This document shows positions 44,047-48,138 of a stretch of 64,000 nucleotides of DNA, one piece after another; within the stretch, counting starts at the first letter, position 1, and each line of letters opens with the position of its first letter. This DNA is from Natrinema sp. SYSU A 869. GTDB taxonomy: Archaea > Halobacteriota > Halobacteria > Halobacteriales > Natrialbaceae. The stretch spans positions 1,550,001 through 1,614,000 of the forward strand of contig NZ_CP082249.1 in NCBI RefSeq assembly GCF_019879105.1. The letters are read 5' to 3'. The notes below the pieces were generated by a model, which saw only the letters and a list, made by a program, of their open reading frames with translations, was not told the DNA's origin and did not search any database. A program made the position numbers and the translations under genes.

Positions 44047-44116
44047 GTGTCAGGCCGTTAGCCCGTCAGCCGATATCGTTTCCATCGTTCCGTGTGTCGC
44101 CATGACGCAAGCCTTA

Positions 44117-44142
44117 TGTACATATGAGTACGTCGATGTACA
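44117..44142 (+). promoter_or_regulatory. Two TRP-box-like hexamers before trpC
   Basis: TGTACA occurs at 44117-44122 and 44137-44142, spaced 20 bases (two helical turns), and the pair forms a larger inverted repeat TGTACAT/ATGTACA. The second hexamer ends 3 bases before the trpC ATG. TGTACA is the published TRP box of Methanothermobacter TrpY. A repressor here is inferred. Confidence 0.55.
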
Positions 44143-44145
44143 ATA

Positions 44146-44967
44146 ATGAACTCCGATACGGAGCTCGCCCCTGCGGTGCAGTCGATACTCGAGGCCGCTC
44201 GGGAGCGTTCGGGCGGTGAGGGCGTCATTGACGTTGACGCACGCTCGCTGCCCGACGCGCTGGCCGACGCCGAGGCCGACGGGCGAGTCCCAGTGATCGC
44301 GGAGGTGAAACCGACGAGTCCGACGGCTGAGGGGACTCGAGACGACGATCCCGTCGAACTGGCACAATCGATGGTCGACGGCGGTGCGACGGCGATCTCG
44401 GTGCTCACGGAGCCGACCCACTTCGGCGGCTCACCTGAGGCGCTGACCCGCATTCGGGAGGCCGTCGACGTCCCGGTCCTGCGCAAGGACTTCGTCATCG
44501 AGGAGGTGGGGATGGACGTCGTCGAGGCGGACCTCTTGCTATTGATCGTCAGATTCGTCGACGATCTCGAGGAACTCGTCACGGCCGCCCGCAAACGGGG
44601 CTTCCAGCCCCTCGTGGAGGTCCACGACCGCGCGGAACTCGAGACAGCGCTCGAGGCAGGGGCCGACATCATCGGCGTGAACAACCGTGATCTGGCGAAA
44701 CTCGAGGTCGACCTCGAAACCTTCGAGTCAGTGGCCCCCCACGTGCCGGACGACGTAACGCTGATCGCCGAGAGCGGCGTCAGCTCGCTGGCGGACGTGC
44801 AACGGATGCGCGCGGCGGGTGCCGATGCCCTCCTGGTCGGCAGCGCCATCATGGACCACGGCGCGGGCGACAGCGACGTGACGGAGAACACCCGACGACT
44901 CACGCGAGCGGAATCCGCGGGCGCTGCGGACTCGACGGAATCCACGACGGAGACTGAGACAACATGA
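44146..44967 (+). CDS. trpC: Indole-3-glycerol-phosphate synthase
   Basis: Ring closure of carboxyphenylaminodeoxyribulose phosphate to indole-3-glycerol phosphate in tryptophan synthesis. The 273-residue TIM barrel has [11 protein letters not shown] (phosphate and catalytic Lys), [22 protein letters not shown] (catalytic Lys and Glu), GVNNRDL and IAESGVSS. An acidic, Ser/Thr-rich C-terminal tail (from about 250) is a haloarchaeal extra. First gene of the trpCBA operon; the stop overlaps the ATG of a 10-codon mini-ORF. Confidence 0.95.
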
Positions 44968-44996
44968 GCGAGCACGACGGAGACATCCAGACATGA
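44964..44996 (+). CDS. Ten-codon mini-ORF linking trpC and trpB
   Basis: ATG at 44964 overlaps the trpC stop as ATGA, and its own TGA (44994-44996) overlaps the trpB ATG as ATGA. It would encode [10 protein letters not shown]. Whether it is translated, or is only a remnant of an earlier start, cannot be told from sequence. It could serve re-initiation and translational coupling. Confidence 0.4.
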
Positions 44997-46261
44997 GCAC
45001 GGAACGCGAACGCGACGGCGAGAGTGAATCCGGACGGACGGGCACGTTCGGTGACTACGGCGGCCAGTACGTCCCCGAGGCGCTGATGCCAGCCGTCCAG
45101 GAACTCGAGGACGCCTACCAGCGATACGTCCTGGAGAACGAGGACGGCTTCATGGACGAGTTCCGCGAGCGACTGCGCGATTTCGGCGGGCGGCCGACGC
45201 CGCTCCAGCGCGCGGATCGGCTGAGCGAGCGCTACGACCGCGAGGTATACCTCAAGCGGGAGGACCTCGTCCACGGCGGGGCACACAAACTGAACAACGC
45301 GCTCGGACAGGTCCTGCTCGCGAAATATATGGGCAAGGAGCGGATCATCGCCGAGACCGGCGCGGGCCAACACGGCACCGCGACGGCGATGGCCGCGGCC
45401 CACCTCGACATGCCCTGCGAGATCTACATGGGTCGGACGGACGTCAACCGCCAGCGGCCCAACGTCTACCGAATGCGGATGAACGGGGCCGAGGTGAACC
45501 CTGTTGAGGCAGGTAGCGGGACGCTGAAGGAGGCGATCAACGAGACGATGCGCGACTGGGCGACCACCGTCGAGCGGACCCACTACGTGATCGGCTCTGT
45601 CGTCGGCCCGCACCCGTTCCCGAAGATGGTCCGGGACTTCCAGGCAGTCATCGGCGACGAAGTCCGGAAACAGATTCAGGAGAAGGCCGGACGACTGCCC
45701 GACAGCGTCGTCGCCTGTGCCGGCGGTGGCTCGAACACGATGGGAGCCTTCCACGCCTTCGTTCCCGATGAAGCGGTCGACCTCTACGCCGTTGAGGCCG
45801 GCGGCTCGAGCCTCGAGATCGACGAGGAGGAAGGTCTCGCGCCCAACTCCGCGACGCTCTCGACGGGCACCGACGGCGTCCTCCACGGCGCGATGACGAA
45901 GCTCCTCCAGAGTACTGACGGCCAGATCATGGAGTCCCACAGCGTCAGCGCGGGTCTGGACTACGCCGGCGTCGGCCCCGAACTCTCACATCTCGTCGAG
46001 ACCGGTCGAGTCACGCCGGCGAGCGTCGACGACGAGGACGCGCTCAACGGCTTCCACCGGCTCTCGCGGCTCGAGGGGATCATTCCCGCACTCGAGTCGA
46101 GTCATGCGCTCGGCTATCTGGAAGAGGAACACGAGACTCTCGGCGATCTCGTTGTCGTCAACGTCTCCGGGCGCGGCGACAAGGACTTAGAGACCGTGTT
46201 AGAGGAGACCGAGACGCGCGATCTCGTAGCCGCACCGGACGTGGAGGTGTTCGACGGATGA
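44993..46261 (+). CDS. trpB: Tryptophan synthase beta subunit
   Basis: PLP enzyme joining indole and serine to form tryptophan; partner of TrpA. The 422-residue protein has the PLP Lys99 in [14 protein letters not shown], the ETGAGQHG substrate loop, and the phosphate-binding [21 protein letters not shown] precedes the lysine as expected for TrpB1. It overlaps trpA by ATGA. Confidence 0.96.
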
Positions 46262-47319
46262 GCCGCGAGATTCGAGCGGAGCGAGAATCTCGGGACGGCG
46301 AGCGGGGAGCGGCTACGAGGTGCGACCAGCGGGAGCACCTCGAGAAACGAACGGAGAACGAAGTGAACCGTGAGCAGCGACCCGCGAGCCGCGAGGTTCG
46401 TGCCGACGGCGGCGAACCGACCGCATACGACAGCGATGTCGAAGCGGCTATCCGCGAGGACCAGCCCGCGTTGATCACCTACATCACCGCTGGAGATCCC
46501 TCGCTCAAGGACACGAAGGCGTACGTCGAGGCCCTCGACCGGGGTGGCTCGGACCTGATCGAACTCGGGCTTCCGTTCTCGGAACCGATCGCGGAAGGGT
46601 CGACGATTCAGGCTGCAATCAACCGCGCGCTCGATGCCGGGACGACCCCCGAGGGCTTCTTCGAGTTGGTCGCGGACCTCGAGACTGAGGCGCCGCTGCT
46701 GGTGATGACGTACTACAATATGATTCTCCAGTATGGTGACGAACCTGACGTTCGGCCCTTCGTCGAACGCGCGGCCGAAGCGGGTCTTTCGGGGATTATC
46801 GTCCCCGACCTGCCCGCCGAAGAGGCGGGCCCGCTGCGCGAGGCCTGCGACGACAACGGGCTCGATCTCGTCTTCATTATCGCGCCGACGACCGAGGGTG
46901 AGCGTCTGGATCAGATCATGTCGCAGGTCTCAGGCTTTGCCTACGTGCAGGCCCGCCTCGGGACGACCGGTGCGCGCGCGAACGTTTCGGGTGCGACCCA
47001 CGACAGCCTCGCGCGGCTTTCGGAGTACGACGTTCCCAAGGCGGTCGGCTTCGGCGTTAGCAAGGGTGACCACGCAGCCGAAATCATCGAGGCCGGCGCG
47101 GACGGCGTTATCGTCGGCAGCGCCTTGGTCGATATCATCGCTGAGCACAGCTCAGCAGGCTCTGGGACGGAGTCCCAGAACATCGCCTCGAGCGACGATC
47201 CCAGCGATGCGGTCGACGCACTCGAGGCCAAAGCTCAGGAACTCAAACGTGGCGCACGTCGCGGCGCGGATACCGTCACGGTCGATCCGGAAGAACGACC
47301 GGAACCAGAACAGCCATAA
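46258..47319 (+). CDS. trpA: Tryptophan synthase alpha subunit with repeat-derived N-terminal extension
   Basis: Cleaves indole-3-glycerol phosphate to indole and glyceraldehyde 3-phosphate. The core begins near residue 58 ([20 protein letters not shown]) and has catalytic Glu102 in [12 protein letters not shown] and the catalytic Asp in VPDLPAEE. The TIM barrel is complete with [10 protein letters not shown] and [13 protein letters not shown]. The first ~57 residues ([20 protein letters not shown]) have no place in the family and match the translated dispersed repeat of copies A-C (REERLGTRTATDGSREQRAN) in the same frame. A further Ser/Glu-rich tail follows about residue 300. Confidence 0.94.
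46310..46392 (+). repeat. In-frame degenerate copy (D) of the dispersed repeat inside trpA
   Basis: Shares blocks with copies A-C in the same order: CGAGGTGCGACCAGCGGGAG, GAGCACCTCGAG, GAACGAAGTGAAC and CCGTGAGCAGCGA. It is shorter than B or C and has diverged, but translation in the trpA frame preserves the REQR-type peptide of the repeat. Confidence 0.6.
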
Positions 47320-47343: not shown

Positions 47344-48138
47344 ATGACCACAGGAATTGACGCACGACTCGACCGAATCGGGACAGACGGATCGTACGTG
47401 ATCGTCCCAATGGATCACGGCATCACAATGGGTGCTGTCCAGGGACTGAAAGACATCGAATCGACAATTGACGGCGTAACCAGCGGCGGGGCGGACGCGG
47501 TTCTCACACAGAAGGGGATCGCACCGCGCGTCCACGACAACAAGAACGGCAAGGGCTACATCGTCCACCTCAACGGTTCGACCACGATCGGGCCGGACGA
47601 GGAAGACAAGCGGCTTACCGGCACCGTCGAGGAGGCAGTTCGGGTCGGTGCCGACGCCGTCTCCTTCCACATCAACGTCGGCTCGGATCACGAGCCAGAC
47701 CAGATTAGCCAGCTCTCTGAGGTCACCGAGACGGCCCAGCGCTTTGGCATTCCGGTCCTCGCGATGGCCTACGCTCGTGGTCCCGGCGTCGACTCGGCGG
47801 ACCCCGAGGCGCTCGGCCACGCAGTCCGCCTCGCCGAGGAACTCGGTGCCGACATCGTCAAGACGGGCTACAGCGGCGACGCTGAGAGCTTCGCACACGT
47901 CGTCGAGTCGACACGGCTCCCGGTCGTGATCGCCGGCGGCTCGAAGGGGACCGATCGTGATACGATCGAGATGGTTCGCGGCGTGATGGACGCCGGCGGT
48001 GCCGGCATCTCCATGGGCCGATCGATCTTCCAGCACGAGAATCCGGAAGCTATCGCACGAGCGGTCGCTGGCGTCGTCCACGAGGATCTCTCGACTGACG
48101 AGGCGCTAGCCGAAGCAGGACTGGCGCTCGAGGCCTAA
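47344..48138 (+). CDS. 2-amino-3,7-dideoxy-D-threo-hept-6-ulosonate (ADTH) synthase
   Basis: Class I aldolase-type enzyme making the archaeal precursor of 3-dehydroquinate from aspartate semialdehyde and a deoxyketohexose phosphate. The 264-residue protein has VPMDHGITMGAVQGLKD, VHLNGSTTIGPD, SFHINVGSDHE, the Schiff-base Lys in DIVKTGYSGDAESF, VVIAGGSKG and GISMGRSIFQHENP. It follows trpA by 24 bases, so it is probably cotranscribed with trpCBA and feeds the same pathway. T5 at 48146-48150 shortly after the stop is a plausible terminator. Confidence 0.93.
   Translation: MTTGIDARLDRIGTDGSYVIVPMDHGITMGAVQGLKDIESTIDGVTSGGADAVLTQKGIAPRVHDNKNGKGYIVHLNGSTTIGPDEEDKRLTGTVEEAVRVGADAVSFHINVGSDHEPDQISQLSEVTETAQRFGIPVLAMAYARGPGVDSADPEALGHAVRLAEELGADIVKTGYSGDAESFAHVVESTRLPVVIAGGSKGTDRDTIEMVRGVMDAGGAGISMGRSIFQHENPEAIARAVAGVVHEDLSTDEALAEAGLALEA

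Follow-up and report, generated by a model that had tools for sequence, protein, structure and literature searches.

A phased TGTACA array before trpC as a candidate TrpY operator of haloarchaeal trp promoters

Introduction

In Methanothermobacter, TrpY binds the trp promoter at TGTACA, the TRP box. The TrpY/TRP-box system of M. thermautotrophicus is the work of Xie and Reeve (summarised in PMC6737238). The TrpY homologue of Thermococcus kodakarensis neither binds the trp promoter specifically nor regulates trp (PMC6737238), so homology alone is no proof of function. In Hbt. salinarum the two trp operons are induced when aromatic amino acids are missing, and it was LrpA2, not TrpY, that was singled out in the arrays of that study (PMC4162585). 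For Hfx. volcanii, the passage of PMC13147458 that cites Large et al. 2007 describes the trpCBA promoter as not tightly regulated. The operator is known for few of the archaeal repressors that sense amino acids. The single open-access paper that we found mentioning haloarchaeal TrpY homologues states that these were not examined.

Here we describe a candidate operator in the trp promoters of haloarchaea. We found no report of it in the open-access literature. A first-pass annotation of this DNA had called TrpY-like control in haloarchaea unrecognised, which is supported as far as the open-access literature goes.

Results

A three-unit array fills the trpC promoter

Positions 44100-44148 of the window (the whole stretch of DNA analysed, 64,000 nucleotides from Natrinema sp. 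SYSU A 869) read ccatgacgcaagcctTATGTACATATGAGTACGTCGATGTACAATAATG. They hold two TGTACA hexamers 20 bp apart, start to start, with 3 bases between the second and the trpC ATG. The first-pass annotation had correctly placed this pair two helical turns apart and directly before the ATG, though its count was incomplete, as it overlooked a third, central GTAC (44128-44131, as AGTACG) at the exact midpoint between the two hexamers. Since this third GTAC lies exactly midway, the element consists of three GTAC units at 10-bp steps (Table 1), which fill the promoter from the TATA box down to the ATG of trpC.

Table 1. Features of the trpC promoter and operon, in positions of the window.
Feature	Position	Strand	Remarks
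BRE-like element CGCAA	44106..44110	+	-40..-36 from ATG; strongly conserved over 27 genera
TATA box TTAT	44114..44117	+	29-32 bp before start codon; near-invariant over 27 genera
TRP-box-like unit 1, TGTACA	44117..44122	.	Overlaps end of TATA box; kept across order
Unit 2, AGTACG	44127..44132	.	At an exact 10-bp step from both other units; GTnC conserved order-wide
Unit 3, TGTACA	44137..44142	.	Directly before predicted leaderless start; conserved
Entire conserved promoter-operator block (putative)	44106..44145	+	98% mean identity, 29 congeners
trpC, indole-3-glycerol phosphate synthase, first gene of operon	44146..44967	+	NF041303, 431 bits, cut-off 380
trpB	44993..46261	+	TIGR00263, 600 bits
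trpA	46258..47319	+	TIGR00262, 241 bits
2-amino-3,7-dideoxy-D-threo-hept-6-ulosonate synthase (ADH synthase), co-directional	47344..48138	+	TIGR01949, 357 bits

The last gene of the putative operon encodes the enzyme for step one of the archaeal aromatic pathway, and its orthologue in Hbt. salinarum is co-transcribed with trpCBA (PMC4162585).

The haloarchaeal consensus is CGAAA for the BRE and TTWT for the TATA box, and 72% of the protein-coding transcripts of Hfx. volcanii are leaderless (PMC4983044). From the distance between the TATA box and the ATG the trpC mRNA is likewise predicted to be leaderless. For bacterial trp operons control at the level of the RNA is common, and the block could in principle belong to an attenuator, a T-box or a leader peptide. 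This would seem highly improbable, because the predicted transcript has no leader to fold, and between 43600 and 45400 no Rfam family scored over threshold (there was one chance match); on these two grounds we rejected an RNA leader or attenuation. The short reading frames of the block also contain no tryptophan codons, and units that are palindromic and lie in helical register would suit a site on DNA.

Single TGTACA hexamers show no excess in the window, with 4 counted against 2.6 +/- 1.8 in shuffles, and the two not accounted for by the array sit within predicted reading frames. The base composition gives an expectation of about one per 10 kb, making the hexamer rarer than the one per several kilobases that the first-pass annotation had estimated. 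While the lack of excess would be in keeping with two hexamers having come together by chance, their arrangement is not: the 5.67-Mb genome contains a single mismatch-free TGTACA-N14-TGTACA, the one before trpC, and most congeneric genomes have exactly one GTAC-N6-GTAC-N6-GTAC, which in every case precedes trpC. The near-invariance of the hexamers in 29 species rules out chance, the probability of which we regard as negligible.

The block is conserved beyond what a core promoter requires

Across the 29 species of the genus, identity is 98% in the 40 bp that directly precede trpC, against 39% in the 40 bp upstream of these. Four control genes from the same species reach 41-76% over their last 40 bp, and between -28 and -1 they reach 45-70%, against 99% for trpC. 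As the boxes overlap the TATA box and extend to the start site, and as BRE and TATA box lie within the block, it might be argued that this is merely an unusually conserved core promoter, made up of BRE, TATA box and initiator, with no specific regulator. The control promoters, however, keep their TATA region while their spacer has diverged, and the 10-bp register of GTAC units is found in two trp promoters with differing TATA distances and in methanogens (see below). We therefore consider a plain core promoter very unlikely, and as the sole cause it is ruled out by the control genes.

The pattern before trpC is present in most families of the order, so that what the first-pass annotation had proposed to compare, the trpCBA promoters of relatives, turned out to carry conserved boxes both among the congeners and well outside the genus. 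In nearly all of 27 genera the distance from the boxes to the ATG is fixed. The information in their trpC promoters peaks at -29..-24, -18..-15 and -9..-4, with BRE and TATA box conserved upstream. Taken together it is well supported by these comparisons that 44106-44145 would act as the core promoter of a leaderless trpCBA-ADH-synthase operon with an operator built in.

Within the genus the near-identity also extends into the first trpC codons (44146-44157, ATGAACTCCGAT), beyond what the protein requires. These codons are perhaps part of the initiation region.

The same units recur at other trp genes

This genome has a second operon, trpD, trpF, trpE and trpG, in which trpD was assigned by a family model and the other three genes from their translations. 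Its promoter, CTTAAGTnGATGTACnnATTTGnnCATTACAAGACAA...GTACATTGGTG, is also conserved and carries GTAC at 0 and 30 bp, with an additional unit at 10 bp in many other genera; boxes before other trp genes, which the first-pass annotation had proposed to look for, are present. Between the trpD boxes the sequence ACAAGAC is conserved across the order and has no counterpart in the trpC promoter. This stretch could be where transcription begins, or a site for another protein.

We scanned 61 genomes with a site profile built from 26 box sites, 24 from trpC and 2 from trpD (G044, G059), using sequence only. Every match with E<0.1 fell at trpC, trpD or trpB, and among the annotated matches no other gene family was seen to recur. 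Seven of the matches were outside the training set: trpD of G055, G036 and G042, a second trpD of G015, and trpB of G044, G046 and G059. The last three genomes (L382, L383, L384; families f9, f11) have the array and a promoter between trpC and trpB, and their trpC has no boxes. The presence of the array before trpB where trpC lacks it suggests that the operator follows trp function rather than the position of one gene, and trpC may escape this control in these three genomes. A wider aromatic regulon was considered and rejected, as the profile gave no recurrent site before non-trp genes; for the aro genes that Hbt. salinarum induces, another mode of control or weaker sites are probable. Two congeners have a second trpD on another contig (G015:C3:107132 and G027:C27:118715; L385, L386), with a weak box match at the extra trpD of G015 and none at that of G027.

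Nearly all haloarchaeal genomes carry a single TrpY-family gene

The genome contains one gene of the TrpY type, for which the first-pass annotation had proposed a search. It lies outside the window (G000:C3:2285366-2285866), on C3 as are both trp operons, at a distance of about 691 kb to trpC and of 1.24 Mb to trpD, and its product of 167 aa matches NF053754 TrpY_fam (NCBIfam) over residues 2-164 with 235.9 bits (cut-off 180). The ACT domain scores 19.8 bits, under the Pfam cut-off of 27; around a conserved VDRR the protein can be aligned with TrpY of methanogens. A TrpY_fam gene is present in single copy in 58 of 61 relatives, including all 47 genomes of good quality (47/47), and Hfx. volcanii also carries one. 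The haloarchaeal proteins are closest to TrpY of Methanosarcinia (47% identity to Methanococcoides; likewise in a tree) and about 34% identical to those of Methanobacteriaceae.

Autoregulation of trpY through TRP boxes was sought in 50 haloarchaeal trpY promoters and not found, there being no conserved box array in them, while the TATA region is kept. In many congeners one GTAC is kept about 16 bp upstream of trpY; in others it is GTAG, and it is too weak for a TRP box.

Methanogen trp promoters with boxes in the same register

Methanogens were gathered by a scan for McrA, with an approximate query used only as a probe, and then tested for TrpY. Three Methanobacteriaceae have trpY and trpE (best match TrpE-arch; full-length matches) in divergent orientation, and the gap between the two genes contains GTAC boxes 20 bp apart. 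Among the TrpY-positive methanogens with a readable trpE promoter (n=7), GTAC boxes are spaced by 10, 20 or 30 bp; no such boxes were found near trpE in any of 7 TrpY-negative genomes. In the trpD promoters of Methanosarcinia, GTAC and ATAC units form arrays with a step of 10 bp. Taking the four promoter sets together, there are 103 GTAC pairs with no more than 45 bp between their members, and 92 of them are spaced by a multiple of 10 bp, compared with about 1 in shuffles.

A prediction set beforehand, that box-less Methanosarcinia would be without TrpY, was strictly true in 2 of 8. Of the others, four have the most diverged TrpY and two a typical one (in one of these trpD is internal). TrpY scores higher in the box-carrying Methanosarcinia (Mann-Whitney p = 0.0009), a difference that is confounded by phylogeny. 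No boxes were found in the TrpY clades of Methanoliparum, Archaeoglobi and CSMAG, and membership of the TrpY family therefore does not imply a TGTACA operator. In Methanoliparum (G072, L412) trpY is divergent from trpC with no GTAC box between them. The Methanoliparum TrpY clade probably reads another operator.

A real operator could instead be read by a regulator of the feast/famine type (Lrp/AsnC), for example by LrpA2, oligomerising on phased sites. Phased sites do suit multimers of the Lrp type, and Lrp family members were present in 12 of 12 genomes tested, with 1 to 10 Lrp-like genes each. In Hbt. salinarum, moreover, LrpA2 shows a 14.9-fold induction when aromatic amino acids are missing (PMC4162585). 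We nevertheless think a reader of this kind unlikely. TGTACA is the TRP box of TrpY itself, and the same array lies between the divergent trpY and trpE of Methanobacteriaceae. Two reduced haloarchaeal genomes of about 1 Mb that are 70-78% complete (G037, G053; L094, L096) have one detected Lrp gene each, yet they keep TrpY, the trp genes and the boxes. Nor did the profile scan find a recurrent operator before other genes.

Discussion

Comparison gives good support to the phased array as the operator of haloarchaeal trp promoters, and TrpY is its probable binder. We consider it likely that TrpY with tryptophan binds the arrays and represses both trpCBA-ADH synthase and trpDFEG; the conserved boxes, the second trp operon, the TrpY gene and the cross-check in methanogens all support the first-pass suggestion of TrpY-like control in haloarchaea. 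That tryptophan acts as the co-repressor and that repression is by occlusion is what we infer. TrpY, with its putative HTH and ACT domains, would bind the boxes cooperatively once tryptophan occupies the ACT domain. Bound along one face of the helix, the protein would cover the start site and the last part of the TATA box and would exclude TBP/TFB or RNA polymerase; initiation would be blocked and trpCBA-ADH synthase repressed. The same TrpY would repress trpDFEG through the phased boxes of that operon. The induction of both trp operons in Hbt. salinarum speaks for this reading. Against it stand the behaviour of the T. kodakarensis homologue, the prominence of LrpA2 in the Hbt. salinarum arrays, the description of the Hfx. 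volcanii trpCBA promoter as not tightly regulated, the low identity to the Methanobacteriaceae proteins, the lack of conserved boxes at trpY itself and those box-less Methanosarcinia that have TrpY.

These findings offer a precise and testable candidate operator for a gene that the genetic model Hfx. volcanii also carries; in this species trp genes serve as selection markers and a tryptophan-inducible promoter is the standard tool. The arrays of two to three boxes also form a natural series in which cooperative repression at archaeal promoters could be studied.

The distribution points to TrpY as a widespread regulator of trp among Methanobacteria, Methanosarcinia and Haloarchaea; a regulatory switch common to archaea as distant as haloarchaea and methanogens appears to be at work. 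More tentatively, and with rather less confidence than we place in the repression of the two operons, TrpY proteins from Methanobacteria to Haloarchaea might read one code of TGTACA-like arrays at 10-bp steps, with dimers assembling like a filament over the TATA box and the start; the haloarchaeal trpY would then have lost its self-repression and its linkage to trp, turning a local switch into a regulon of two operons.

The haloarchaeal system probably works like the TRP-box system of Methanothermobacter with altered wiring. As in M. thermautotrophicus, TGTACA boxes lie in a trp promoter in helical register, the genome has a TrpY-family gene, and the (here putative) targets are the trp biosynthesis genes. 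In contrast to M. thermautotrophicus, the haloarchaeal trpY lies apart from the trp genes and is itself without conserved boxes, the putative operator is on two separate operons, trpCBA and trpDFEG, and the 10-bp arrays fill the space from the TATA box to the start of a transcript predicted to be leaderless. The arrays before trpD in Methanosarcinia are similar in having GTAC or ATAC units at 10-bp steps before a trp operon, and the likeness extends to a 16-base match, TGTACATACTTGTACA, with a haloarchaeal trpD promoter (G040 against G078/G092). Unlike haloarchaea, Methanosarcinia have a single trp operon headed by trpD, and their boxes are further from the start codon because a leader is present. 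TrpY control of trp is perhaps ancestral, with Thermococcales being a case of replacement. Tar (TK0271) of T. kodakarensis likewise brings archaeal trp genes under the control of aromatic amino acids; it is an activator encoded in the aro operon, where it replaces TrpY (PMC6737238), unlike the candidate repressor of haloarchaea.
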